A DNA stretch of 64,000 nt from Rhizobium sp. NFR03 (lineage in GTDB: Bacteria > Pseudomonadota > Alphaproteobacteria > Rhizobiales > Rhizobiaceae): positions 806,001 through 870,000 of the forward strand of contig NZ_FOGR01000002.1 of assembly GCF_900111275.1 (NCBI RefSeq), in the 5' to 3' direction. Shown here piece after piece: positions 50,238 to 63,976 of this stretch; position 1 is the first letter of the stretch; every line of letters begins with the position of its first letter. The position numbers and the translations under genes were made by a program. The notes below the pieces were generated by a model. It searched no databases, was not told where the DNA came from, and was given only the letters and a program-made list of their open reading frames with translations.

Positions 50238-50569
50238 GTCATTTCGCCCTTGTTTTACCTTTGAGAGCCGGTTTCCGGTCTTTTCTCATCGAGACGTTTT
50301 CGTCTTCTATGGAGGTCAACATAGGCGGCGGCTGTTTGAGACCGCTTAAAATTCGCGGTTAAAAAACTTTGCATTCCCCGATGGTTAGCAAAAGCCGACG
50401 CATTACGGTTTAGAACACGTCAACGCCCGCTCTCGCATTTTTCACAAAAAGCCTCGCGCAAGCAGCAACGGTCATGGTGAAGCGACATGGCCGCAGCTTG
50501 CCGGCGCGTGCCCTTCGGCGCGCCCCCAAGCCTGCGGCAGCGGCAGACGTCAAGGCAACGGGGCGGCAA
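50238..50569. other. Divergent intergenic region before the DUF1217 gene
   Basis: 332 nt between DUF6101 and the DUF1217 gene. There is an A/T-rich stretch with TTAAAATTCGCGGTTAA around 50347-50365, a possible promoter region. No gene is called; the DUF1217 frame is open from 50474, but the translation before 50570 is basic and low-complexity. Confidence 0.5.
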
Positions 50570-53029
50570 ATGGCATCGACCTATCTCGATTATAATCTCG
50601 TCGTTCGGGACATGAAGGAGAGCATCAACCGCGTCTCCCAGCAGAAGGTCGTTGAGCGCGATACCGAGTATTACAAGGAGAATATCGGCAAGGTCACGAC
50701 CGTCGATGCCTTCCTGGATGACTACCGGCTCTATTCCTATGCCATGAAGGCGCACGGCCTGGAGGACATGACCTACGCCAAGGCGTTCATGCGCAAGGTG
50801 CTGGAAAGCGACCTCAACGACGATAACAGTTATGCCAACAAGCTGAGCGACGACCGCTATCGCAATTTCGCGATGGCCTTCAGCTTCGACAAGTCGACCA
50901 CGGCGGCCCAGACCGGTGCACAGGAAGATGCGCTGATCGGTCTCTACAACGCGAATATCGCCAATGCCGATAGCGTGATGAACACCGAGGTGAACTATTT
51001 CAACGCAATGACGGCCGGCGGCAATATCGCGACCGTCGATGAGTTCCTTCAGAACGATCGCTTGCGCGAGTATGCCTTCCCGCTTTTCGGGCTTCAGCCC
51101 GACAATTTCGACTTCACACAGGTGCGCCAGGCCCTGACGAGCGACATCAGCGACCCCTCAAGCTACGTCAACACGCTGCAGCAGACCTCCGGCGATGCGC
51201 TTTCCGGACGTGGCGCGGAGATCGAGGCGGAGATCGCCAAGTATAACGAGCGTACCAAAGCCTCTCGAGAGATCGCGTCGCTGACGAACAGTCTGTTCCA
51301 GCCCGGCGCCGATCAGGCCGCGATCCAGGCGAAGGTCGCCGAGCAGGAGGCGATCTACAACGCGCTCGATGCGCAGCTTCTGCCGTTCGCCCAGACGACT
51401 GCCAAGGTTTCCGCCTTGAACTCGGAATTGTCGCAGCTGGAATATGCGGGATCGGTCGCGACCAATCTGAAGGCGATGGCGACGGCGTTTAAATTCAATG
51501 CCGACGGAACGGCGCCGGCCTCGACGCCGCTTATCAGCGACGCCGACAAGGCGTCGATGCGCGAGCTTTACTTCGCCTCCGCACCGCGCCTTACGGGCAC
51601 CGGCGCGTTGATCAACAAGGATTACTTCGAGGCGCACGTCAACAATTTCACGAATGCGACGGACCTTCTTGCCGACAGCCGCATGCGCTCCTTCATCATC
51701 ACGGCCTATGGCATTCCGCGAGCAACGGGAACCAGCGTCCTGAAGGCCATCATCACCAGCGACCTTAACGATCCCGCGAGCTATGCCAACACGACCGGCG
51801 GGGAGAACAACAAGGCATACAAGGCTCTGGCCGCCGGCTTCAATTTCCAACCGGACGGAACGCTGGCTGACGGTGACGTGCCCCAGACGGCGGCCCAGAG
51901 AAATGAAGCCTCTTCGAACTATATGAACCGCTACAATGACGCGGCGGATGCGGCGGACGAGTCCCTGATCTCTGCTTACAAGGCGCTGATCGGTAAGGTC
52001 GATACCATCGACAAGCTCCTCGCCGATTCCAGGGGCTTGCAGGTTGTGCTGTCAGCCTTCGGTCTTGAGAACGAAGGCAAGTCTGCGCGCGAGTTGCGCA
52101 TGATCATGACGAGCGACGTGAACGACCCGAAGAGCTACGTGAACACGCTGAAGGACGACCGCTACGTCCAACTGACCAACGCCTTCAACTTCAAGGCCGA
52201 CGGCAAGATCGGCGCGCCGAAGCTTGCGCAGTCGCAGTCCGAAATCCTGCAGATCTCCAAGGCTTATGTGCTCGCCAAGAGCCAGTTCGGCACCGAGAAG
52301 GACAAGACCGACGCGACGGAGGAAGCCAAATATTACGCAGCGGAGATGGAGAAGATCGCGACCCTCGACGATCTCCTGAAAAATACGCGAATGACCGACT
52401 TCATTCTGGTCGCGACCGGCATCGATCCGAAGACGGTGCCGAAGGATGAGCTGAAGAAGGTGTTCACGTCGGACCTTTCCGATCCCGAGAGCTTCATCAA
52501 CACGCAGGCCGATACCCGCTACCGCGAACTCGTTGCGTCCTTCAACTTCGATGCGACCGGCAAGACGGTTCGTCCGCAGGAAAACCAGATCCAGACCCGC
52601 CGCGGTCTTCTGGAAACGCAGGACCTCTACTACAACCAGACGCTGGAAGAGCAGACGGGCGAGGACAATGCGGGCGTCCGCCTCGCGCTCTACTTTCGCC
52701 GCATGGCATCCGGTATCGGCTCCGTCTACGACATTCTCGCCGACAACGCGCTGATGCAGGTGGTGCGAACGGCCTTCAGCATCCCGGAGGAAATGAGCAG
52801 CGCCGACGTCGATGTGCAGGCGGAATACATCAAGCGCGTTCTTGAAATTCAGGATCTGCACGATCCGGAAAAGCTGGAAAAGCTGATGAAGCGATTTACC
52901 GCGCTCTACGACGTGGAGAACAACACGGACACGTCGCCGGCCCTGGCGATCTTCAACGCTTCGGCTGGAAGCAGCGGCATCAGCAGCGAATCGCTGCTCG
53001 CGATCTCGCAATTGCGCATGGGCGGCTGA
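50570..53029 (+). CDS. Multi-repeat DUF1217 protein
   Basis: 819-residue helical protein built from about six DUF1217-like repeats, near residues 41-110, 152-205, 360-430, 475-548, 605-690 and 730-800. Each has VxTVDxxLxDxRL, a helix ending in AFGL or similar, then the signature TSDxNDPxSYVNT (seen as SDLNDDNSYAN, SDISDPSSYVNT, SDLNDPASYANT, SDVNDPKSYVNT, SDLSDPESFINT). Repeat 6 is the most diverged. DUF1217 proteins are often encoded in rhizobial flagellar clusters, but no flagellar gene is near. No signal peptide. Start MASTYLDYN; GGGGCGGC upstream. Confidence 0.85.
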   Translation: MASTYLDYNLVVRDMKESINRVSQQKVVERDTEYYKENIGKVTTVDAFLDDYRLYSYAMKAHGLEDMTYAKAFMRKVLESDLNDDNSYANKLSDDRYRNFAMAFSFDKSTTAAQTGAQEDALIGLYNANIANADSVMNTEVNYFNAMTAGGNIATVDEFLQNDRLREYAFPLFGLQPDNFDFTQVRQALTSDISDPSSYVNTLQQTSGDALSGRGAEIEAEIAKYNERTKASREIASLTNSLFQPGADQAAIQAKVAEQEAIYNALDAQLLPFAQTTAKVSALNSELSQLEYAGSVATNLKAMATAFKFNADGTAPASTPLISDADKASMRELYFASAPRLTGTGALINKDYFEAHVNNFTNATDLLADSRMRSFIITAYGIPRATGTSVLKAIITSDLNDPASYANTTGGENNKAYKALAAGFNFQPDGTLADGDVPQTAAQRNEASSNYMNRYNDAADAADESLISAYKALIGKVDTIDKLLADSRGLQVVLSAFGLENEGKSARELRMIMTSDVNDPKSYVNTLKDDRYVQLTNAFNFKADGKIGAPKLAQSQSEILQISKAYVLAKSQFGTEKDKTDATEEAKYYAAEMEKIATLDDLLKNTRMTDFILVATGIDPKTVPKDELKKVFTSDLSDPESFINTQADTRYRELVASFNFDATGKTVRPQENQIQTRRGLLETQDLYYNQTLEEQTGEDNAGVRLALYFRRMASGIGSVYDILADNALMQVVRTAFSIPEEMSSADVDVQAEYIKRVLEIQDLHDPEKLEKLMKRFTALYDVENNTDTSPALAIFNASAGSSGISSESLLAISQLRMGG

Positions 53030-53048
53030 GAGGGGCCAGACATGAACG

Positions 53049-54482
53049 TCAAGGCCTGATCTGCAGCACCTTGTCCGGGTTCATGATGCCGGCCGGGTCG
53101 AAGGCGTGCTTGATCCGCTGCATCAGGTCGATCTCGATGCCATGGCGCACCTCCGCCAGTTCGTCCCGCTTCAGCTGTCCGATGCCATGCTCGGCGGAGA
53201 TGGAGCCTCCATGGGCAAGCACGATGCCGTGCACGATCGCGTTCATCTCCCGCCAGCGTTCCAGAAAGGCCTGTTTGTCCGCGCCCACGGGCTGGGAAAT
53301 GTTGTAGTGGATGTTGCCGTCGCCCATATGGCCGAAGGAGCAGATCCGCGCGCCGGGGATCGCCGCTATCACGGCTGAATCGGCCTCTGCCATGAAGGCG
53401 GGAATGCTCGCGATCGGCACCGACACGTCATGCTTGATCGAACCGCCCTCCGGCCGCTGCGCCAGCGACAGGCTCTCGCGCATGTGCCAGAGCGCCTTTC
53501 GCTGCGCCTCGCTCGAAGCGACGATCGCATCGTCCACCAGCCCGTTTTCCAGTGCACCGGACAGCAGCGCCTCCATCGTGCGCTGCGCGCTTTCGGCGCT
53601 GTCGGAGCTGGAAATGTCGATCAGCACGTACCAGGGATGAACCGTCGCCATCGGGTCCGTGACGCCGGGAATGTTGCGGACCGAGAAATCGATGCCGATG
53701 CGCGGCATCAGTTCGAAGCCGGTCAATGTCTGCCCGCAGAGCGTGGATGCCCGCGTAAACAGCGCCAGAGCATCCTCGACCGTGCGAAGGCCTGCAAGCG
53801 CCACCTCGTGGCCAAGCGGCTTGGGAAACAGCCGCAGCACGGCGCCGGTGATGACGCCGAGCGTTCCCTCCGCTCCAATGAAGAGGTCGCGCAGATCGTA
53901 GCCTGTATTGTCCTTCTTCAGGCGGCGCAGCCCGTCCCAGATCTCGCCGGTCGGCAGCACCGCTTCGAGGCCGAGGCACAGCTGGCGCATGTTGCCATAG
54001 GCGAGCACTGCGGTTCCCCCCGCATTCGTCGAGAGATTGCCGCCGATCCGGCAGGAACCCTCCGAGCCGAGCGACAGCGGAAACAGCCGGTCCACCCGGT
54101 CGGCCGCCATCTGGATATCGGCGAGAATGCAACCGGCATCCGCCACGATGACATTGCCCACGGGATCGACGTCGCGGATGCGGTTCATCCGCTCGAGCGA
54201 CAGGAGAATGTCGGCAGCACCGGTGCGCGGGATCTGCCCGGCCACATGGCCGGTATTGCCCGCCTGCGGCACGATCGCGACGCCGGTTTCGCTGGCAAGC
54301 TTCAGGATCGCCGAGATTTCCGCCACGCTGCCGGGCTTCAGCACCGCCGGCGTCGTGCCGCGATAGAGCCCGCGCGTTTCCACGAGATAGCGATCCTCGA
54401 CGGCAGCCCCGACCTCCGCATGCCCGCCGACGAGATCGACGAAACGCTGGACAAGATCGGGTGAGGGGACGGTATTCGTCAT
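53049..54482 (-). CDS. FAD-dependent D-2-hydroxyacid dehydrogenase
   Basis: 477-residue flavoprotein of the FAD-binding-4 type (D-2-hydroxyglutarate dehydrogenase / D-lactate dehydrogenase group). The FAD half has VAIVPQAGNTGHVAGQIP, GSEGSCRIGGNLSTNAGGT and LFIGAEGTLGVITGAVL; the C-terminal half has FGHMGDGNIHYNIS and the ending SAEHGIGQLKRDELAE, with the His residues that bind metal and substrate. 2-hydroxyglutarate is the most likely substrate. A GTG three codons earlier is an alternative start. It follows the Sua5 gene by 30 nt and is probably in one operon with it. Confidence 0.9.
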   Translation of the reverse strand: MTNTVPSPDLVQRFVDLVGGHAEVGAAVEDRYLVETRGLYRGTTPAVLKPGSVAEISAILKLASETGVAIVPQAGNTGHVAGQIPRTGAADILLSLERMNRIRDVDPVGNVIVADAGCILADIQMAADRVDRLFPLSLGSEGSCRIGGNLSTNAGGTAVLAYGNMRQLCLGLEAVLPTGEIWDGLRRLKKDNTGYDLRDLFIGAEGTLGVITGAVLRLFPKPLGHEVALAGLRTVEDALALFTRASTLCGQTLTGFELMPRIGIDFSVRNIPGVTDPMATVHPWYVLIDISSSDSAESAQRTMEALLSGALENGLVDDAIVASSEAQRKALWHMRESLSLAQRPEGGSIKHDVSVPIASIPAFMAEADSAVIAAIPGARICSFGHMGDGNIHYNISQPVGADKQAFLERWREMNAIVHGIVLAHGGSISAEHGIGQLKRDELAEVRHGIEIDLMQRIKHAFDPAGIMNPDKVLQIRP

Positions 54483-54512
54483 GTCGGGCACTTTCGAAAG
54501 GGGTGTGTCATC

Positions 54513-55484
54513 TCAGCGGGGGGCCGCAGCGCGCTCCAGCCGGTCGCGAATGGCCTCGCCGAGGCCTTGGCTTGGAATGGCGGAAAAGGCGATCGTCCGG
54601 GCGCCCGTAGCGTCCGCCTGCTTCATATAGGAAAAGAGGTGCGCTGCTGCTTCCCGAAGATTGCCGGACGGGCTGAGATCGAGCACGATCAGCGCGTTCT
54701 CCTCGCCCGCAAGGGGCACGCCGCCAAAGCGGATCAGGGCTTCGCCCGGCCGAACATCGCTTGCATCCAGCCGGACAGTGGCACCGGGCGCGTAGTGCGA
54801 GGCGAGCATGCCGGGCGCCTCCAAAGTGGCACCGGCTGAATCCTGCCGCAAAAGCCGCTGACCGGCGACGGCCTCGATGTCGGCCGCTTCCAGTCCGCCC
54901 GGACGCAGCAGGCGTAACCGGCCGTTCTCCACCTTCACGATGGTCGATTCCAGCCCGATGCCCGCCGGTCCCGCGTCGAGAATGAGATCGATGGCGGAGC
55001 CGAGATCATCCGCCACATGCGCCGCCGTCGTCGGGCTGATGCGCCCCGAGGTGTTGGCGCTGGGCGCTGCCAGCGGCTTGCCATAGGCGGCGATGACCTC
55101 GCGCGCGAAGCCGGCCGGCATCCGCAGGCCGAGCGTGTCGAGCCCGGCCGTGGCCAGCGCATGCACGTCGCCGCCGGGCGCACGCGTCACAACAAGCGTC
55201 AGCGGCCCCGGCCAGAAAGCCTCCGCCAGACGGCGCGATACCGGATCGAGCAGGCCGTGGCGCGCAGCCATCTCCATATCGGACACATGTGAAATGAGCG
55301 GATTGAAGCGTGGCCGGCCCTTGACCTCATAGATCGAGGCGATGGCATCGGCGCGCGTCGCATCGGCCGCGAGCCCGTAGACCGTTTCCGTCGGCAGCGC
55401 GATGGGCCGCCCTCGGCCCAGCACGTCCACCGCACGCTCCAGTGCGCGCACCCGGTCAAGGGTCGTGTCGATGATCTCTGCCAT
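54513..55484 (-). CDS. tsaC: L-threonylcarbamoyladenylate synthase (Sua5 type)
   Basis: 323-residue Sua5-type enzyme, first step of the universal tRNA modification t6A: threonine, bicarbonate and ATP give threonylcarbamoyl-AMP. The YrdC domain shows PTETVYGLAADATRADAIASIYEVKGRPRFNPLISH and, later, SANTSGRISPT; the C-terminal Sua5 domain follows a linker (LEAPGMLASHYAPGA). Length matches the long (Sua5) rather than short (TsaC) form. It is first in a two-gene unit with the flavoprotein gene. Confidence 0.93.
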   Translation of the reverse strand: MAEIIDTTLDRVRALERAVDVLGRGRPIALPTETVYGLAADATRADAIASIYEVKGRPRFNPLISHVSDMEMAARHGLLDPVSRRLAEAFWPGPLTLVVTRAPGGDVHALATAGLDTLGLRMPAGFAREVIAAYGKPLAAPSANTSGRISPTTAAHVADDLGSAIDLILDAGPAGIGLESTIVKVENGRLRLLRPGGLEAADIEAVAGQRLLRQDSAGATLEAPGMLASHYAPGATVRLDASDVRPGEALIRFGGVPLAGEENALIVLDLSPSGNLREAAAHLFSYMKQADATGARTIAFSAIPSQGLGEAIRDRLERAAAPR

Positions 55485-55551
55485 GCCGTCTCGCGCTTCC
55501 GTCCGATGAGGTGGACGTCTTAGACCAAAACGGGAGTGGCTGCAAAACGTC

Positions 55552-56160
55552 TCAGAGCGCGCGGATGATCGTTCGCAGCGCGTCGTTGCGGGCGCCCAGC
55601 ATCAGCACGTTCTTCAGGGCCGTCTTCGGGTCCTGCGTGCGGAACAGGAGCCCGCCGTCGCGAATGGTCCGGTTGATCACGAGCTTGCCCCGCTCGCGGT
55701 CGAAGTCCATCGCGACGGCGAAGTACATGCGCGAATATCCGCGGCGAACATCATCGAAGAAATGTTCGTCCTTGCCGATCTCGCAGAAGAAGTTGGCCAT
55801 GTAGAACGACCAGCGGACATCGTCGTAATCCGCGAATTTGGTGCGCGCCGCCGTCACATGACAGTAGCCGAGATGCGGGCTGTCATCGAGCGTGCGGTGG
55901 AAGATCATCCTGGGAAAGCGGATCGACGCGTGAAAGCCGTTGATGCGGTCGTAGGCGAGCGTGCCTGCGGCCTCCAGCTTGCGGCCCGTCCGGTCTGCCA
56001 CTTCCTTGTGCGTCAGGTAGCGCCGCGCGGCACGCGCCTCGGACGACGAACGGTTGATCCGGCCGGTGCGGAGGTAGTCCGTGTACACGCCCCCGCGTGG
56101 TTCCTTGGGAGCCTTGGCATCATCGAAGTAGCGCAGGTTGGCCATGGTCTGGTCCAGCAT
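55552..56160 (-). CDS. Conserved hypothetical protein
   Basis: 202-residue protein that I do not recognise with certainty. It is soluble, with no signal peptide or cysteine motif. Segments such as YFDDAKAPKEPRGGVYTDYLRTGRI, HVTAARTKFADYDDVRWSFYMANFFCEIG and HFFDDVRRGYSRMYFAVAMDFDRERGKLVINRTIRDGG look like a compact, conserved fold; it resembles uncharacterised rhizobial proteins. A ribosome site GGAAGATC precedes the ATG. It is the divergent neighbour of the riboswitch-gbcAB locus, 645 nt away. Confidence 0.75.
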   Translation of the reverse strand: MLDQTMANLRYFDDAKAPKEPRGGVYTDYLRTGRINRSSSEARAARRYLTHKEVADRTGRKLEAAGTLAYDRINGFHASIRFPRMIFHRTLDDSPHLGYCHVTAARTKFADYDDVRWSFYMANFFCEIGKDEHFFDDVRRGYSRMYFAVAMDFDRERGKLVINRTIRDGGLLFRTQDPKTALKNVLMLGARNDALRTIIRAL

Positions 56161-56349
56161 GGATGATCTTCCTTTTCATCGGGTTTACGGGCCCGCCATG
56201 GCGCGAGGCTTGCGTCATGGAGGCATTCGCGAGGCCTTTGGACCACGGACAAGCAGCCTGCGATGTCGCAAACGGGCAGCCGCTTGCGTTGCGGCAGTCT
56301 GACCGGAAAATCGACATCTGCTGAAAATTCACGCATCCTCTTGTTTATC

Positions 56350-56376
56350 TTGACGGATCAGTACGCGCGCCGTCAA
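56350..56376. promoter_or_regulatory. Dyad upstream of the riboswitch
   Basis: TTGACGG (56350-56356) and CCGTCAA (56370-56376), perfect 7-bp arms 13 nt apart. The left arm is also a good -35 (CTTGACG). Candidate operator of the gbcAB transcription unit. Confidence 0.45.
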
Positions 56377-56454
56377 AAATACCCCGCCGGCATGCGTGTC
56401 GTCTTTCTCAAATCGCGTGTCGCTTCTTGGCCTCTGAAATCGGCCGACGCGGCG

Positions 56455-56622
56455 TTAGATAGAGAGGCTCAAGGCGCCGGTTTCAAAGGGATCCGGACAA
56501 ATTGGGAAGCCGGTCGAAACCCGGCGCTGCGCCCGCAACGGTGGTGGAGCATGAAGCCGGCGGATCCTTGTCACGGATCGGCATGGCCCAGCCCCTGAGC
56601 CCGGACACCTGTCTTGGCGATA
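56455..56622 (+). promoter_or_regulatory. Cobalamin riboswitch
   Basis: The aptamer hallmarks are in order: GGGAAGCCGGTCGAAACCC (from 56504), the core GCTGCGCCCGCAACGGT (56526-56542; consensus CTGCCCCCGCAACTGT), a variable stem part, and the B12 box AGCCCGGACACCTGTC (56598-56613; consensus AGCCAGGAGACCTGCC, 13 of 16 match). It lies about 190 nt before gbcA, on the same strand. Boundaries are approximate. No B12 gene is next to it. Confidence 0.88.
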
Positions 56623-56711
56623 ATGTGACGGACTTTGATGTGAATGTCTTGGTGCGGCGGGTTGCCGGGTGTGAGCGAAATGCCGTCCCCGGCCATACCA
56701 GCCCTGTAGAT

Positions 56712-56793
56712 GCCCCCTTGCGGGGTTTCGGGATGGCGACCTCTTGAAGGGGTCCGTGGTATATGCGACCTCTTGGCGAGGTCCGTGGGATAA
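56712..56793 (+). repeat. Tandem hairpin repeats before gbcA
   Basis: Two 29-nt units, 56736-56764 and 56765-56793, share 24 of 29 positions; each reads GCGACCTCTTG, four variable bases, GGTCCGTGG, then an A/T-rich end, and forms a GACC/GGTC hairpin. A more diverged, 24-nt unit (56712-56735) precedes them (CCCC-TTGC-GGGG followed by TTTCGGGATG). The last unit ends at the gbcA ribosome site. Confidence 0.75.
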
Positions 56794-56805
56794 AGGAACG
56801 GGAAC

Positions 56806-58050
56806 ATGGATTTTCGCAGCGAAGTGCTCCGCACGCTCCGGAACCGGCGCGAGACCCACAGCCTCGAGCAGGCATTCTACACGGATCCCGATCTCTACAA
56901 GCTCGACCTGGAGGAGATCTGGTACAAGGACTGGCTGTTCATCGGCCATGACTGCGAGATCCCGAAGGCCGGCAACTATTTCACCGTTCAGATCGGCGAT
57001 TATCCCGTTGTCGTCACCCGTGATCGTCAGGGCGCGATCCATGCCCTTCACAATGCCTGCCGCCACCGCGGCTCGCGCGTCTGCACCCAGGCCAAGGGGG
57101 CGTCCGCCAAGCTCGTCTGTCCCTATCACCAGTGGACCTATGAACTCGACGGCAAGCTGATGTTCGCCCGTCAGATGGGCGAGGACTTCGACAAGTCCGC
57201 CCACGGGCTGAAGCCCGTCGCCTGCCAGACCATTGCCGGCTACATCTTCATCAGCCTGGCGGCCGAACCGCTGGACTTTGCGCCCGTGCGCGACATGGTC
57301 ACCTCCTACCTCGCGCCGCACAATCTCAAGGACACGAAGGTCGCTTTCGAAAGCACCATCGTGGAGAAGGGCAACTGGAAGCTCGTCTGGGAAAACAACC
57401 GCGAGTGCTACCACTGCGCCAGCAACCACCCGGAGCTTTGCCGCACCTATCCCGAGGCACCGTCTGCCACGGGCGTGCAGGGCGCGAAGGACGATCCGGT
57501 CATCTCCGAGCACTGGAGCCGCTGCGAAGCCTCAGGTCTGCCGAGCGAATTCCGCATCGATCCGACGGGCCAGTTCCGCGTCGCGCGCATGCCGCTCATT
57601 CAGGATGCCGAGAGCTACACCATGTCGGGCGCCCGCGCCGTCAAGCGCCGCCTGTCGGACGCTGTGCCCCAGAGCCATATCGGTACGCTGCTGATGTTCC
57701 ATTACCCCAGCACCTGGAACCATGTGCTTGCCGACCACGCCATCACCTTCCGCGTGCTGCCGCTCGGCCCCGAGCTGACGCAGGTCACAACCAAGTGGCT
57801 GGTCCACAAGGATGCGGTCGAGGGGGTCGATTACAACCTCGAGGAACTGACGCATGTCTGGACCGAGACCAACGATCAGGACCGCCAGATCGTCGAGGAA
57901 AACGCCTTCGGCATCCGCTCGCCGGTCTATGAGCCCGGTCCTTATTCGCCCGAGCACGAAGGCGGCGTCATGCAGTTCGTCGAGTGGTACACGAATTTCA
58001 TGCAGGACCGCCTGACGGGCGTCCACGCGCCGCTCGTGCGCGTGGCTTGA
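56806..58050 (+). CDS. gbcA: Rieske oxygenase, probable glycine betaine demethylase subunit A
   Basis: 414-residue Rieske-type oxygenase. The [2Fe-2S] site is CRH (C85, H87) plus CPYH (C105, H108); the mononuclear iron site includes the NNRECYHCASNHPEL segment with His-x4-His. The pattern and length match GbcA, which converts glycine betaine to dimethylglycine plus formaldehyde, with GbcB as reductase; gbcB follows by 1 nt. The start has AAAGGAACGGGAAC upstream. It is controlled, by position, by a cobalamin riboswitch. A related choline- or stachydrine-type demethylase is possible. Confidence 0.88.
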   Translation: MDFRSEVLRTLRNRRETHSLEQAFYTDPDLYKLDLEEIWYKDWLFIGHDCEIPKAGNYFTVQIGDYPVVVTRDRQGAIHALHNACRHRGSRVCTQAKGASAKLVCPYHQWTYELDGKLMFARQMGEDFDKSAHGLKPVACQTIAGYIFISLAAEPLDFAPVRDMVTSYLAPHNLKDTKVAFESTIVEKGNWKLVWENNRECYHCASNHPELCRTYPEAPSATGVQGAKDDPVISEHWSRCEASGLPSEFRIDPTGQFRVARMPLIQDAESYTMSGARAVKRRLSDAVPQSHIGTLLMFHYPSTWNHVLADHAITFRVLPLGPELTQVTTKWLVHKDAVEGVDYNLEELTHVWTETNDQDRQIVEENAFGIRSPVYEPGPYSPEHEGGVMQFVEWYTNFMQDRLTGVHAPLVRVA

Positions 58051-58051
58051 G

Positions 58052-59194
58052 ATGAGCGACGGCATGGTTCAGGAAACGGCTATCATATCGCCGTTCCGTC
58101 ACTTCGACGAACTCCAGCCCTGGAACGATCGTCAGCATCTCCTCGAATGCATCGCGGCGACGGTCGAGGCGCCGGATGTCATGACGTTCGTGTTCAAGTC
58201 GGATCGCGACGGCTGGTTCCGCTACCTGCCGGGCCAGTTCGTCACGCTCGAAATACCGGTGACGGCCGACGATCCGGTCATGCGGACCTATACGCTATCG
58301 TCAACACCTTCGCGCCCGTTCTCCATCGCCGTCACCGTCAAGGCGCAGGCGACCTCGATCGGTACCCGCTGGATGTTCGAGAACCTGCGGCCGGGCATGA
58401 CGCTGAAGGCGTTCGGTCCGCTCGGTGACTTCTCCTTCGTGCGCTATCCCGGCGAGAAGTACCTGTTCGTCTCGGCGGGTTCCGGCATCACGCCGATGAT
58501 GTCGATGACGCGCTGGTTTTCCGATTGCGCGCCGCAGACCGATGTCGCCTTCGTCTCCTGCGCCCGCCGTCCGGACGATCTGCTCTTCCGGGCGGAGCTG
58601 GAGATGCTTGGCGCCGGCATGCCCAACCTGTCGCTCGGCTTCGTCGTTGAGGGTCACGAACCCCGCCATGGCTGGCACGGCCTGCGCGGTCGCATCGACG
58701 CTGCGAAGGTGGCGCTGCTGACGCCCGATTTCATGAGCCGGACGGTGTTCTGCTGCGGCCCGGAGCCCTTCATGCGCGGCGTGCGTGAGATGTTGCAGGC
58801 ATCCGGCTTCGACATGGCGCGCTACCACGAGGAAAGCTTCCAGCCCGCCGCGGCGCCGAATGTCGATGAGCTCGCCGTTCGCGCCGGTGCTGGCGATGCT
58901 GCCGGCGATGCCGATACCGATCAGCCGATCGTCGCGCCCACCGTCACCTTCACCATGGCCGGAAAGGAAGCGAAATGCGTTCCCGGCCAGACCGTGCTCC
59001 AGACCGCCCGCGCCGCCGGCGTGCGCATCGGCGCGGCCTGCGAAGGCGGCCTCTGCGGCACCTGCCGTGTCATGAAGATCTCGGGCGAGGTCGAAATGAA
59101 CCACAATGGCGGCATCCTCGACGAGGAAGTCGAGGAAGGCTACATCCTCGCCTGCTGCTCGCGTCCGTTGACGGATGTGCAGATCGAGGCCTGA
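58052..59194 (+). CDS. gbcB: Ferredoxin reductase partner of the Rieske oxygenase
   Basis: 380-residue reductase: FAD domain (MRTYTLSSTP), NAD domain (LFVSAGSGITPMMSMTRW, then FCCGPEPFMRGV) and C-terminal plant-type [2Fe-2S] ferredoxin (CEGGLCGTCRVMKISG and the last Cys in ILACCSRPL). It passes electrons from NAD(P)H to GbcA. A 40-residue Ala/Asp-rich linker (AGAGDAAGDADTDQP) joins the last two domains. It starts one base after the gbcA stop codon, so the pair is translationally linked. Confidence 0.9.
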   Translation: MSDGMVQETAIISPFRHFDELQPWNDRQHLLECIAATVEAPDVMTFVFKSDRDGWFRYLPGQFVTLEIPVTADDPVMRTYTLSSTPSRPFSIAVTVKAQATSIGTRWMFENLRPGMTLKAFGPLGDFSFVRYPGEKYLFVSAGSGITPMMSMTRWFSDCAPQTDVAFVSCARRPDDLLFRAELEMLGAGMPNLSLGFVVEGHEPRHGWHGLRGRIDAAKVALLTPDFMSRTVFCCGPEPFMRGVREMLQASGFDMARYHEESFQPAAAPNVDELAVRAGAGDAAGDADTDQPIVAPTVTFTMAGKEAKCVPGQTVLQTARAAGVRIGAACEGGLCGTCRVMKISGEVEMNHNGGILDEEVEEGYILACCSRPLTDVQIEA

Positions 59195-59227
59195 GCGACG
59201 GGGCTGCCGGCTTCCCGGCGGCCGTTC

Positions 59228-60310
59228 TCACCGTGATGCGATCCGCGCCCCGCGCACGGCAATCGAGGATGTCGTCATGCTATCCACGCCACGCGGGGCC
59301 TGCGTGCCGATGCAGATCGGGCGTGAGCCGCTCGACGCCACGAGCGTGATGATGGGCGGTCCGAGCGTGGGCGCAGCGGGAGCGGGCTCCGGCGGCAGGG
59401 GCTTTTCCGGCAGCAGTTCGCCTTTCGCCCATTCCACCTTCAGTTTCGCAGCGTTTATCGGCGCCACGTTGACGTCGATGTCGGGCAGGGTTCCGCCGAC
59501 CCGGTAGGGACAGCGCCGCTTGTTGCAGTTGGCGCCCGACGAAAATTGCCAGAGCGCATAGGTATCCCAGTTGCCCATGGGAAAGACGTTGCGGATGCCG
59601 GGCTTGTAGCGGGCATACCAGAGCGGCAGGCGGGAGAGGGTCGGATAGAGCCTGCGATTGTCGGCGATATGCCGTGCCGTGGAGTGATTGGTGTAGAGCA
59701 TCGGATAGCGGCCCGTCCGCGTCTTGATATGCTGCGCGAAGATTTCGCCATCTTCCAGCGACATGAAGTTTTGGGGATCGATGCCCTCGATGTCGAGCAC
59801 CATCAGCTCGTCGGCGGCAGGTTCGGCATAGTCGAGGAAGTGGTTGGCCTGCTCGATGGGGTTGCCCGGCCGCGCGAGGTGATAGGCGCCCCACAGCAGC
59901 CCGCTCGCCCGCGCCACCATACGCCGGGTCTGGTACAGCTCGCGGCTGACCGCATATTTCCGCCACATCGTCTTGCAGTGGGCGAACGTATCGCCCTTGT
60001 GGTCACCCGTGCAGGAAAAGCTTTCCGGCAGCCCGTCCGAGGCCTTCGAGACGAAGCCTGCAATCCGCTTGTCCTTGAGCATGTCCTGCCAGTCGACGAT
60101 ATTCAGTTCATAGGCATCGATGACCAGCGCCGGCTCCGGCGTTTTCCACGGCTCCAGATCGATGGCAAGGACCGGCTGCGGCGAGAACGCGGCACCAAGC
60201 GCCATCAGGATACCCAACGCCGCGGCCGTGCACCGCCCGGAAGGGGAATGCCCGAAACGGAAGTCGGTGAACGTGCCGGCAATGGTTGTGGCGATGTTTC
60301 GCATGCGCAT
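59228..60310 (-). CDS. GH25-family lysozyme
   Basis: 360-residue exported muramidase. A basic N terminus is followed by a membrane/signal segment (AAALGILMALGAAFSPQPVLA). The GH25 core runs from VIDAYELNIVDWQDM through KASDG, ELMVLDIEGIDPQ (catalytic Asp-x-Glu), PMLYTNHSTARH, LPLWYARYKPG, YALWQFSSGANC and DVNV. The C-terminal tail is Pro-rich and may be cleaved or cell-wall attached. Its start lies 19 nt from a CtrA-type site shared with the BA14K gene. Likely role: peptidoglycan remodelling. Confidence 0.9.
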   Translation of the reverse strand: MRMRNIATTIAGTFTDFRFGHSPSGRCTAAALGILMALGAAFSPQPVLAIDLEPWKTPEPALVIDAYELNIVDWQDMLKDKRIAGFVSKASDGLPESFSCTGDHKGDTFAHCKTMWRKYAVSRELYQTRRMVARASGLLWGAYHLARPGNPIEQANHFLDYAEPAADELMVLDIEGIDPQNFMSLEDGEIFAQHIKTRTGRYPMLYTNHSTARHIADNRRLYPTLSRLPLWYARYKPGIRNVFPMGNWDTYALWQFSSGANCNKRRCPYRVGGTLPDIDVNVAPINAAKLKVEWAKGELLPEKPLPPEPAPAAPTLGPPIITLVASSGSRPICIGTQAPRGVDSMTTSSIAVRGARIASR

Positions 60311-60328
60311 GATGCTGCGCTCACATGG

Positions 60329-60343
60329 TTAACGCGGCGTTAA
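60329..60343. promoter_or_regulatory. CtrA-type site between GH25 and BA14K genes
   Basis: TTAA-CGCGGCG-TTAA: the exact spacing of the full alphaproteobacterial CtrA box (TTAA-N7-TTAA), also a perfect palindrome (TTAACGC-G-GCGTTAA). It lies 19 nt before the lysozyme start and 124 nt before the BA14K start. Confidence 0.6.
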
Positions 60344-60466
60344 TTTTCTCGGTCCGCGTTGCCCGTCGTCCGCAGCCGCGGGAACCAATACGCCTGCCGC
60401 CCGTTTTCCGACCAGCGGATACCGTGCCCCTCGCGGTCGTTCGATAAAAATTCCACGGAGGAAACA

Positions 60467-60922
60467 ATGGGTCTCTTCAACGCCAAGCTCCTTTCGGCCG
60501 CCGGCCTTTCCGCAGCGCTCTTCGTGACGTCGTTCGTGCCCGTACAGGCCATGGTGCCGATCCCGGTTCAGAAGCCGGTGCAGATCGCCAATGCCGCGGA
60601 GCCCGTACAGTATCGCAACCGCGACCGGGACGACTGGCGCCGTCGCGGTATGCACCGCCGGGGTGACGCCTACTATTACAACGGCCATCGCGGATACCGT
60701 GAACGCCGCCGCGGCTACCGCGAACACAATGGCGTCTGGTTCCCGCTCGCAGCCTTCGCGACCGGCGCCATCATCGGCGGAGCCATCAACAACGACCGCC
60801 CGGTACGCGTCGGCGGCAGCCATGTGGCCTGGTGCCAGAACCGTTACCGCTCGTATCGCGCCTATGACAACACGTACCAGCCCAACAACGGCCCGCGCCG
60901 TCAGTGCAATTCGCCGTATTGA
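60467..60922 (+). CDS. BA14K-family exported protein
   Basis: 151-residue protein with signal peptide (GLFNAKLLSAAGLSAALFVTSFVPVQA). The middle is Arg/Tyr/Gly-rich (RGYRERRRGYREH). A membrane-like segment GVWFPLAAFATGAIIGGAI follows, then the family C terminus HVAWCQNRYRSYRAYDN with two Cys and QPNNGPRRQCNS. BA14K of Brucella is a lectin-like immunoreactive protein. The start has GGAGGAAACA. It is followed by a strong terminator. Confidence 0.92.
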   Translation: MGLFNAKLLSAAGLSAALFVTSFVPVQAMVPIPVQKPVQIANAAEPVQYRNRDRDDWRRRGMHRRGDAYYYNGHRGYRERRRGYREHNGVWFPLAAFATGAIIGGAINNDRPVRVGGSHVAWCQNRYRSYRAYDNTYQPNNGPRRQCNSPY

Positions 60923-60950
60923 TCGATTGAGTTTGCCAGTGTGAATGAGG

Positions 60951-60978
60951 AAAAGGCACCGCTCATACGGTGCCTTTT
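60951..60978 (+). terminator. Terminator between BA14K and CorA/ZntB genes
   Basis: AAAAGGCACCG (60951-60961) and CGGTGCCTTTT (60968-60978), perfect 11-bp stem, 6-nt loop. Bidirectional, between convergent genes. Confidence 0.95.
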
Positions 60979-60998
60979 CTGCGTTGGGATGTCTCCGG

Positions 60999-61991
60999 TT
61001 AGAGTATCCCGATCCGTTTCAGGATCGTCCAGGCGAAGGCCATGGACATCACGATGAAGACGCCGGCGATGAGCGTGCCGTGAACGCCGCCGGCAAGCGG
61101 CAGGTCGCTCGTGTTCATGCCGAAGAAGCCGGTGACGAGGGTTGGTGGCAGCAGGAAGGCAGTCATCAGCGAGAGGATATAAAGGTGGCGGTTGGTCTCC
61201 GAGGAGAGCTTGCTGTCAATCTCCTCGTGTAGAAGTCGCGCCCGTTCCTGCAGCGCGAAGACGTCGCGATCGACTGTCTCCAGCCTGTCGGTCAGGCGTT
61301 CGGCGACGTCGATGAAGCCTGCGGGCACCTCGTCTTCGTCCGACGCGGCGGCGCGCCTGAGAAGAGCCAGCAGTGTTCGCAGATGCCGGTGCAGCCGGAC
61401 GGCGGTGCGGCGCAACGGCGCCAGCCTCGGCTGGTCGTTGTGTCCAGCCTCACCATAAACCTCGTCCTCGATGACGTTCAGTTCTTCCGTCAGCTCCAGC
61501 ACGAGGCCGATCAGGGTCCGCTGGAATTCGATGACCATCATTTCGAACAGGTCGATCGGCCGAAGGCAACGCGGGTTCTTCTCGATCGCCGCCTTCACCC
61601 GGTCGATGCTGCGCAGCGGATGCAGCCGCGTCGTCACGATGACCTTGTCCGTCACCGCGAAATGCAGCCAGCCGATGGTCTTCGTCATCTGGTCGAAGGT
61701 GCGCTCGAAATCGACCAGCGTGCCGTGAACCATGGCCTCGTCGGTGGTGATGGCAGCCTGGGTATCGTGGCTCGACAGGGTAGCCAGCGCGTCCGGCGGC
61801 AGATCGCAGATCTTCTGGATCAAGGCAGGCGTGCGCGCGTCGCTCAGCGCCAGATGGAGCCAGAGCCAGCCATCGCCTTCCGTCAGTGTCTCCAGCGGGG
61901 CATCCGCGGAAATGCGCTCGCCACGGCCCTGTCCCGGACGGAAGCGATAGGCCCAGACAAGACCGGGAATTTCAGGAGAAACAAGATTCAT
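60999..61991 (-). CDS. zntB: CorA/ZntB-family metal transporter
   Basis: 330-residue CorA-superfamily protein. The cytoplasmic part opens with LVWAYRF and has DGWLWLHLALSD; the first membrane helix ends at FFGMNTSDLPLAGG (GMN signature), and the second is GTLIAGVFIVMSMAFAWTIL. GMN followed by TSDLP rather than the MPE of the other CorA is typical of the ZntB group (zinc, proton-coupled). The N-terminal 38 codons upstream of MNLVSPEI are rejected. The ribosome site is weak. Confidence 0.88.
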   Translation of the reverse strand: MNLVSPEIPGLVWAYRFRPGQGRGERISADAPLETLTEGDGWLWLHLALSDARTPALIQKICDLPPDALATLSSHDTQAAITTDEAMVHGTLVDFERTFDQMTKTIGWLHFAVTDKVIVTTRLHPLRSIDRVKAAIEKNPRCLRPIDLFEMMVIEFQRTLIGLVLELTEELNVIEDEVYGEAGHNDQPRLAPLRRTAVRLHRHLRTLLALLRRAAASDEDEVPAGFIDVAERLTDRLETVDRDVFALQERARLLHEEIDSKLSSETNRHLYILSLMTAFLLPPTLVTGFFGMNTSDLPLAGGVHGTLIAGVFIVMSMAFAWTILKRIGIL

Positions 61992-62119
61992 ATGAGAATT
62001 TCCGGTCGTCGGGATCGAGCTGTATCGACCTTCTATGACAGTTTCGTTGCAAGGCAAAACGAAGCCTTGCAGCCCGCCTCGCCGGAAACAGAACGTCGCG
62101 ACCAAACATGCATCTTCGG

Positions 62120-62141
62120 TTGACGTTTACGTAAAAATCAA
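62120..62141. promoter_or_regulatory. Palindrome before the acyl-CoA dehydrogenase
   Basis: A perfect TTTACGTAAA palindrome (62126-62135) sits inside a larger imperfect one with TTGA and TCAA ends, 18 of 22 positions symmetric. It resembles operators of MerR-type regulators of branched-chain amino acid and fatty acid use (LiuR-like), as far as I recall them. It lies 59 nt before the dehydrogenase start. Confidence 0.45.
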
Positions 62142-62200
62142 TAACTTGGCCGGCGGCGCAGGAGAAGACGGGTGGGCGCCGGCAAAGGCAGGAGAACCTT

Positions 62201-63976
62201 ATGTACACATCGCCTGTGGACGACATTCTGTTCACGCTGAAGCATATCGCTGGTCTCGAAGGCGACGCGTCTGTCGATGCGGATATTGTGGAGGCTGTGA
62301 TCTGGGAGGCAGGCCGCTTCTGCGACGCGACGATCGCCCCGGCAGCCGCGCGCGGCGACAGGGAAGGCTCCAAGCTCGCCAATGGCGAGGTCCGTTCGCC
62401 ATCCGGCTGGGCCGAAATCTACCGCTCCTGGGCCGCTGCCGGCTGGAATGGCCTCGCCGCACCGGTGGGTGCGGGCGGGCAGGGCCTGCCGCATCGCCTG
62501 CAGATCGCCGCCATGGAAATCTGGAACGGCGGCTCGATGGCCTTCGCTCTGGCGCCGATGCTGACCGCCGGTGCCGCCGAGGCGCTTGCCGCACACGGTT
62601 CCGATGCCCTGAAGGCCCGCTTCCTGCCGAAGATGGTCTCCGGTGAGTGGACCGGCACCATGAACCTGACGGAACCCCATGCCGGCTCGGATCTGGGAAC
62701 GCTGCGCACGCGCGCGGAGCGTCGCGACGACGGCACCTACCGCATCTTCGGCCAGAAGATCTACATTACCTGGGGCGAACACGACTTCACCGACAATATC
62801 GTCCACCTCGTTCTCGCCCGCCTTGCAGACGCACCGGAGGGTACGCGTGGTATCTCGCTCTTCCTAGTGCCGAAGTTCATCGTCAATGAAGACGGGACGC
62901 TGGGTGCCCGCAACGATCTCTTCTGTCACTCGATCGAGGAAAAGCTGGGCATCCACGCCTCGCCCACCTGCACCATGATTTATGGCGATGGCCGCTTCGG
63001 CGAGGAGCCGGGCGCCGTCGGCTACCTTATTGGCGAGGAGAATCGCGGTCTCGCCTGCATGTTCACCATGATGAACAATGCCCGTCTTGCAGTCGGCGCG
63101 CAGGGTGTCGCCATGGCGGAAGCCGCCACGCAAGGCGCGCTGGCCTATGCGCGGGAGCGTCGTCAGGGCAAGGCCCCCGGTGCGAATCCGGGAGCTGCCA
63201 CAGCCAGCCCGATCATCGATCACCCGGATATCGCCCGCACGCTGCTGACCATGAAGGCGCTCACCCAAGGGTCCCGCGCCATTACCTATCTCTGCGCGGA
63301 GGCGGTCGATCGCGCCCACGAGGCCGAGGGCGACGCAAAGCGCCACTGGCAGGATCGTGCGGCGCTGCTCACCCCCATCGCCAAATCCTTCCCGACCGAT
63401 GTCGGCGTCGAGGTCGCCTCGCTTGGTATTCAGGTCCATGGCGGCATGGGCTTCGTGGAGGAAACGGGTGCGGCCCGACTGCTGCGGGATGCACGCATCG
63501 CGCCGATCTATGAAGGCACGAACGGCATTCAGGCCATCGACCTTGTCACACGCAAGTTGCCACTCGGTAACGGTGCCCATGTCCGCGGACTGATCGATGA
63601 GCTCTCGGCCATCGCGACGGCCGTTCCCGCAGGCGAAGGAGACAAGGCCGCATGGGGCGGGACCGCCGCGCGTCTGGACAAGGCAATTGGCGCTTTGATC
63701 ACCGCCACCGAATGGCTCCAGTCGGAACTTTCGGGCGGACGCCTGACGACGGCCCTTGCCGGCGCTACCGCTTATCAGCGCCTCTTCGGTCTGGTCCTCT
63801 CCGGCGTTCTTCTGGCTAAGGGTGCGGGCGTATCGGTAGACGACGGCCGTCAGGCGCAACGCATCGCGCTTGCCCGTTTCTTCGCCGAAAACCTGCTCGG
63901 AGAAACGGCCTCGCTTGCCGACGCCATCCTCCATGGCGCCGACAGCCTTGAGGCTGCGCGCATCGCGCTGAATTGA
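62201..63976 (+). CDS. Acyl-CoA dehydrogenase (long, DmdC-like type)
   Basis: 591-residue FAD-dependent acyl-CoA dehydrogenase, longer than the usual 380-residue type because of a C-terminal extension. Motifs: TGTMNLTEPHAGSDLG (FAD/substrate), KIYITWGEHD, CMFTMMNNARLAVGAQGVAMAEAA, and YEGTNGIQAIDLV with the probable catalytic Glu. Length and motifs fit the group that includes 3-methylmercaptopropionyl-CoA dehydrogenase and other acyl-CoA dehydrogenases; the substrate is not predictable. The start MYTSPVDDI has AGGAG upstream. A palindrome upstream may be its operator. The next gene begins 8 nt after its stop codon. Confidence 0.92.
   Translation: MYTSPVDDILFTLKHIAGLEGDASVDADIVEAVIWEAGRFCDATIAPAAARGDREGSKLANGEVRSPSGWAEIYRSWAAAGWNGLAAPVGAGGQGLPHRLQIAAMEIWNGGSMAFALAPMLTAGAAEALAAHGSDALKARFLPKMVSGEWTGTMNLTEPHAGSDLGTLRTRAERRDDGTYRIFGQKIYITWGEHDFTDNIVHLVLARLADAPEGTRGISLFLVPKFIVNEDGTLGARNDLFCHSIEEKLGIHASPTCTMIYGDGRFGEEPGAVGYLIGEENRGLACMFTMMNNARLAVGAQGVAMAEAATQGALAYARERRQGKAPGANPGAATASPIIDHPDIARTLLTMKALTQGSRAITYLCAEAVDRAHEAEGDAKRHWQDRAALLTPIAKSFPTDVGVEVASLGIQVHGGMGFVEETGAARLLRDARIAPIYEGTNGIQAIDLVTRKLPLGNGAHVRGLIDELSAIATAVPAGEGDKAAWGGTAARLDKAIGALITATEWLQSELSGGRLTTALAGATAYQRLFGLVLSGVLLAKGAGVSVDDGRQAQRIALARFFAENLLGETASLADAILHGADSLEAARIALN

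Follow-up and report, generated by a model that had tools for sequence, protein, structure and literature searches.

A cobalamin riboswitch upstream of probable glycine betaine demethylase genes in Rhizobium sp. NFR03, and its association with the B12-dependent MtgB family among relatives

The window analyzed here is a continuous 64-kb stretch of DNA (64,000 nucleotides) from Rhizobium sp. NFR03. When the whole window was examined with cmscan, only one Rfam match scored above gathering. This match, on the + strand at 56455-56630, is to the cobalamin riboswitch family (RF00174), covers the full length of the model (1-189 of 189), and scores 56.3 bits versus a gathering value of 31.5 (E value of 2.6e-11). 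The presence of a real cobalamin riboswitch at this location is confirmed. The element is flanked by a divergent gene for a DUF6656 protein (55552-56160, - strand) and by a gene for a Rieske oxygenase that is followed by a reductase gene. The relevant features are as follows.

56455-56630, + strand: aptamer of the cobalamin riboswitch family (RF00174), a weak example of its type; also recovered in a whole-genome search
56526-56539, + strand: aptamer core GCTGCGCCCGCAAC, given as GCTGCgCCCGCAAC in an alignment of 25 leaders
56597-56609, + strand: B12 box GAGCCCGGACACC, given as GAGCCCGGAcACC in the same alignment
56648-56668, + strand: position of a P13-like hairpin with a GGYGG loop, whose stem of six pairs is disrupted in the window and in five congeners (G001-G005) according to a pairing count
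56792-56802, + strand: ribosome-binding-site-like stretch AAAGGAACGGG, read from the sequence
56806-58050, + strand: gbcA-like gene for a Rieske oxygenase, a probable glycine betaine demethylase (Rieske and Ring_hydroxyl_A domains; NF058607 as best NCBIfam match)
58052-59194, + strand: gbcB-like gene for a reductase with FAD, NAD, and 2Fe-2S domains (Pfam; NF058606 match)

The initial annotation of this region had proposed a cobalamin riboswitch on the same strand as gbcAB, and its coordinates, strand, core motif, and B12 box all proved to be correct. It had also recommended a covariance-model scan, which yielded the match described above, and a search for further B12 riboswitches, which revealed two more in this genome. 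These precede a cbtA-type cobalt transporter gene and a cobP/U-cobW-cobN gene set, and thus gbcAB is one of only three cobalamin riboswitch targets found by the whole-genome search. Judging from the riboswitch class, cobalamin would be expected to repress gbcAB. The core, which we take to be the P5/L5 region, and the B12 box each carry a deviation: the lower-case G of the core is a C, and the lower-case C of the box is an A, in all 19 aligned leaders of other genera.

The product of the Rieske gene is a protein of 414 residues with a Rieske domain and a ring-hydroxylating catalytic domain. Its best NCBIfam match is NF058607 (GbcA) at 523.6 bits, which is below the curated equivalog cut-off of 670, and the reductase likewise scores 385 bits for NF058606 against a cut-off of 500. 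The GbcA cut-off was reached in none of 61 genomes, comprising the window's own and 60 relatives. Nevertheless, the glycine betaine demethylase name is likely to apply because of the gene context of homologues. A Paracoccus orthologue with 69.9% identity has purU, an FAD oxidoreductase gene, folD, ETF genes, fdhA, and a BCCT transporter gene as neighbors. An Agrobacterium homologue with 62.0% identity is surrounded by genes for glycine betaine ABC transporters, and its vicinity also includes fdhA and a short MttB-family annotation. Similarly, a betaine transporter gene is located close to a Phaeobacter homologue.

The order of genes surrounding gbcAB (window positions 50474-63976) resembles that of S. 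meliloti Ak57 (L176). The two regions share an FAD-binding oxidoreductase gene, a threonylcarbamoyl-AMP synthase gene, a divergent small gene, gbcAB, a transporter gene, and an acyl-CoA dehydrogenase gene. In S. meliloti there are also a DUF1217 gene and a GH25 gene, which were matched by position alone to window positions 50474-53029 and 59228-60310.

The pairing of this switch with gbcA is conserved. Of the 79 loci that could be assessed by a motif search, almost all of which come from Rhizobiaceae, 70 have both aptamer motifs within 700 bases upstream and on the gene strand. The 79 derive from 80 orthologue-bearing loci in genome contigs, with one (L142) left out because only 41 bases lie upstream. 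An Rfam scan of relatives' loci with at least 66% identity revealed RF00174 upstream of the orthologue in 10 of 16, and matches before homologues include those of S. meliloti Ak57 (100 bits), Phaeobacter gallaeciensis (119 bits), Gemmobacter fulvus (115 bits), Ruegeria TM1040 (110 bits), and Cereibacter azotoformans (104 bits). No upstream match above gathering was present at loci of Salipiger, Ponticoccus, Roseivivax, Pseudosulfitobacter, and Paracoccus ferrooxidans, at an Agrobacterium plasmid locus, or at the Stc2-type locus of S. meliloti pSymA. In a class-wide sample, 23 of 385 genomes, including the window's own, carry a homologue at an E value of 1e-100 or lower. Among the other 22 genomes, an aptamer is directly upstream in 7 of the 20 loci scanned, which come from other alphaproteobacterial families (of 25 loci in total, with L221 from the window's own genome and L240-L243 left out). 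Thus, the pairing recurs in Rhodobacterales and in other families of the class.

Among 13 leaders without the switch, a scan for residual aptamers gave no RF00174 match at E values of 1 or below (L010, L011, L014, L015, L017, L020, L109, L117, L122, L125, L128, L132, and L137). One of these (L014) fitted a pattern built for gbcA leaders but was rejected, as its leader carries no aptamer above gathering. Two further arrangements are of note. On plasmid pORIO2 of Cereibacter azotoformans (L213, 3683-9197), the riboswitch and gbcAB adjoin metH and a homocysteine S-methyltransferase gene, which is again a link between betaine and methionine. The gbcA homologue of genome G519 is preceded by a region with two divergent cobalamin riboswitches (L223, 2839-3362).

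A B12-dependent route for the same reaction has been described. Work on Ruegeria pomeroyi (PMC12478193) shows that betaine demethylation there requires MtgC and MtgD, and proposes MtgB (PF06253) as the betaine-demethylating partner. The same study ties a set that includes corrinoid and DUF1638 proteins to this process, and it reports that the MtgBCDE genes of S. meliloti are found together with the cobalamin biosynthesis operon. Of the 80 genome-contig loci, 50 entered searches with PF06253 and with an Ensifer MtgB copy whose neighboring genes encode a corrinoid protein and one with DUF1638. Both searches matched the same 52 of 68 genomes, each with at least 80% identity; MtgB is fragmented in two genomes (G075 and G107), which were scored as carrying it.

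The presence of the switch and the presence of MtgB are associated. Among 67 genomes, 48 carry both, 6 carry only the switch, 4 carry only MtgB, and 9 carry neither (Fisher p of 5.6e-5, with kinship ignored). This table leaves out G008, whose best gbcA homologue is only 56% identical, and L098, which has no aptamer by motif and also lies outside the residual-aptamer scan, and duplicates (L066-L068, L076, L094, and L099) are counted once under their G handles. Therefore, MtgB is present in 48 of 54 genomes with the switch, and the six exceptions are G000-G005, made up of the window's genome with the five congeners G001-G005. The four genomes with MtgB but no switch (the congener G006 plus G117, G120, and G127) count against the explanation that we favor. 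A second sample of 20 genomes, for which MtgB was scored at 63% identity or higher and two genomes at 54-55% (G413 and G490) were scored as lacking it, comprises 7 with both, none with only the switch, 3 with only MtgB, and 10 with neither (p of 0.003, kinship again ignored). In other words, all 7 genomes with the switch carry MtgB versus 3 of 13 without it. Those three (G180, G246, and G317), from a total of 10 with MtgB, likewise count against our preferred explanation.

When kinship is controlled by using tree-independent pairs, the association runs in the same direction but is borderline. For the 67 genomes, 4.0 of 5 pairs (by switch) and 4.8 of 7 pairs (by MtgB) agree, with none opposite and median p values of 0.125 and 0.06, respectively. 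For all 87 genomes, whose tree produced long-branch warnings, an average of 4.5 of 6 and 5.4 of 8 pairs agree, again with none opposite and median p values of 0.06 and 0.03. If G413 and G490 are scored as carrying MtgB, the 87-genome result becomes 4.4 of 6 pairs with a median p of 0.125. Separately, a second MttB subfamily that is approximately 55% identical to MtgB was encountered 50-64 kb from gbcA in G081, G068, and G009. The loci are L190 (7796-9346), where a LysR regulator gene adjoins, L194 (8089-9642), and L204 (7861-9414).

Our best explanation, to which we assign a probability of about 0.68, is that a cobalamin riboswitch in the leader turns gbcAB expression down once cobalamin is abundant, and thereby governs a choice between the corrinoid-dependent MtgB/MtgC system and GbcAB, with this control probably being reduced or altered in G000-G005. 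GbcAB would convert glycine betaine to dimethylglycine and formaldehyde in a reaction that depends on O2 and iron but not on B12. Most relatives could also carry out this first step with MtgB/MtgC, in which case the methyl group would be delivered to tetrahydrofolate. Cells with sufficient B12, and hence cobalt, would use the corrinoid route, whereas cells with too little would rely on GbcAB, as in the metE/metH arrangement. Because MtgB is absent from G000-G005 while a weak switch is kept, control in these organisms is probably reduced or altered. The initial annotation had likewise set gbcAB against a corrinoid MttB-family route under B12 control. This idea gains support from co-occurrence across the family in two samples, but it does not extend to the window's genome, which has neither a PF06253 match nor an MtgB match.

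Two other explanations would assign the switch a different purpose. It might be that gbcAB belongs to the B12-synthesis regulon, such that the glycine (plus methyl groups) made from betaine would feed the formation of 5-aminolevulinate and of the corrin ring, and that B12 shuts down this supply by feedback. The other two cobalamin riboswitches of the genome do precede cobP/U-cobW-cobN and the cbtA cobalt transporter gene, and a stimulating effect of betaine on industrial B12 production has been reported (PMC8123684). Moreover, the canonical CobN protein, a proxy marker of aerobic B12 synthesis, is also lost in five genomes that lack both the switch and MtgB (G014, G023, G112, G123, and G132), which makes B12 synthesis a confounder. 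CobN was checked in 60 of the 87 genomes, encompassing all 13 without the switch and 36 of 54 with it among the 67, plus 11 of the 20 in the second sample. However, in genomes with only one of MtgB and canonical CobN, the switch tracks MtgB in 10 cases and CobN in 8. The former comprise six without the switch (G015, G022, G035, G104, G478, and G494, where G478 is only 83% complete) and four with it (G034, G036, G111, and G519), whereas the latter are the single clade G000-G005 plus G120 and G127. These disagreements favor the isozyme reading, and we consider the precursor-supply alternative unlikely. Ten genomes (G014, G023, G034, G036, G111, G112, G120, G123, G127, and G132) have no canonical CobN and carry only a divergent homologue, with 38-43% identity over the N-terminal part and an open frame of 1112-1156 residues. 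By coordinates, a cobalamin riboswitch is located near this gene in several of the ten.

Alternatively, the Rieske enzyme might demethylate another methylated amine, such as proline betaine, and the switch would then serve that pathway. The closest solved chains to the oxygenase are 3n0q and 3vca, and we take the latter to be Stc2, the proline betaine demethylase of S. meliloti. Stc2, a relative of the window's enzyme, acts on proline betaine. A homologue on pSymA of S. meliloti 1021, presumably Stc2 itself, is 56.3% identical to the window's protein, which together with the missed GbcA cut-off lends this idea some appeal. Yet S. meliloti records hold both kinds of protein, with a 75.6% identical homologue in Ak57 in addition to that on pSymA, and at the pSymA locus (L217), in contrast to the window's gbcA, no riboswitch scores above gathering. 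Given also the betaine-catabolic neighbors of the Paracoccus and Agrobacterium homologues, a different substrate seems improbable.

The status of the switch in the window's own clade is a separate matter. A search for MttB/MtgB homologues, which the initial annotation had advised, returned none in the window's genome (99.99% complete) by either PF06253 or MtgB, and the same is true for G001-G005. As a result, no corrinoid betaine route of the MttB/MtgB kind is visible there, and the window's genome lacks the B12-dependent counterpart that is expected of the isozyme class. The gbcA aptamers of G000-G005 score only 36.1-61.7 bits versus 86.1-115.8 bits for five leaders of other genera. We considered whether low scores are a genome-wide trait of cobalamin aptamers, but rejected this notion. 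The cobN-side aptamer of the window's genome (39.5 bits) is usual for its kind, with counterparts beside CobN scoring 45.1 (G009), 46.0 (G017), and 49.3 (G035), whereas gbcA aptamers score high in other genera.

A second sign comes from a conserved hairpin downstream of the aptamer that resembles P13 and presumably forms a kissing interaction with L5. The motif was found in 67 of 70 leaders of other genera (missing in L081, L140, and L141), and all six pairs are formed in 66 of these 67. Among 31 distinct hairpins of other genera, 185 of 186 cells are paired, with two-sided changes, compared to a shuffled mean of 171.7 and a maximum of 179. In contrast, only 18 of 30 cells are paired among the five distinct hairpins of G000-G005, and the window's leader lacks the conserved stem, although a shorter stem in another register is possible. 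The weak aptamer, the broken hairpin, and the absence of MtgB suggest relaxed constraint or decay after loss of the partner. Indeed, the aptamer might be a mere relic in this clade, with gbcAB being constitutive or under another regulator, and this prospect falls only somewhat short of even odds while being compatible with our preferred explanation elsewhere. The alignment of 25 leaders offers points in both directions, as most of the stretch between the hairpin and the start codon is absent in L008, but two substitutions in the most conserved blocks are common to all six genomes, as if under some constraint. Furthermore, the aptamers of all six genomes still score above gathering.

How the switch might act on gbcAB was also considered. 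Folding of many leaders yields plausible hairpins for a terminator-type platform or for one that sequesters the ribosome-binding site, but these candidates were rejected because the pairing test was negative. Pairing of the ribosome-binding site with the leader surpassed letter shuffles at p<0.05 in 6 of 68 switch-bearing leaders of other genera, in none of the six from G000-G005, and in 3 of 13 leaders without the switch, and we count this result against our best explanation.

B12-independent isozymes under cobalamin riboswitches are exemplified by metE. Such isozymes are a recognized class of targets (PMC3766115), and on present comparisons the best reading is that the gbcAB leader adds a member to this class. 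As with metE, a cobalamin aptamer precedes a gene whose enzyme would replace a B12-dependent one. Unlike metE-type pairs, however, GbcAB and MtgBC would form a catabolic pair, whose B12-independent member is an O2-dependent Rieske oxygenase. The comparative case for this isozyme logic appears to be fair across the family, but it is absent for the window's own genome. PMC12478193 cites GbcAB glycine betaine monooxygenases from Pseudomonas and Chromohalobacter. The window's genes resemble these in that the top NCBIfam matches agree for both genes, with the oxygenase and reductase genes adjacent in the window, but the pair falls below both curated cut-offs. MtgBCD, as described in the same paper, would perform the same first betaine-catabolic step and includes the family that co-occurs with the switch, but unlike GbcAB it requires a corrinoid.

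We found no report linking a cobalamin riboswitch to a glycine betaine demethylase among titles and the beginnings of abstracts in open-licence PubMed Central, a scope that excludes the supplementary regulon tables of PMC3766115, where gbcA may appear without comment. Likewise, passages of PMC8123684, PMC5948670, PMC3766115, and PMC12478193 do not show a connection between the riboswitch and betaine demethylase genes, and the word 'riboswitch' occurs in PMC12478193 only once, in the reference list.

More broadly, B12-gated GbcAB versus MtgBC might be a widespread alphaproteobacterial cassette that tends to be kept where both routes exist and to decay after the corrinoid route is lost, with the window's clade caught in mid-decay and GbcAB of S. 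meliloti being a candidate for its second betaine system. We regard this generalization as evenly balanced between true and false. According to PMC12478193, an earlier study revealed a second betaine catabolic system in S. meliloti, for which MtgBCD itself is also a candidate beside GbcAB. Betaine is a major osmolyte. If our explanation is true, B12 or cobalt status would set the fate of its methyl groups, formaldehyde versus the folate pool, and a micronutrient would thereby influence how rhizobia and roseobacters are supplied with methionine, how much energy they gain, and how much oxygen they need. Sinorhizobium is used with betaine-containing media for vitamin B12 production (PMC8123684 and PMC5948670), and there the gbcAB genes and their leader could offer both a candidate second betaine route and a regulatory target. 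Ensifer adhaerens is another industrial B12 producer (PMC9157374), for which the gbcAB switch might be a regulatory target as well.
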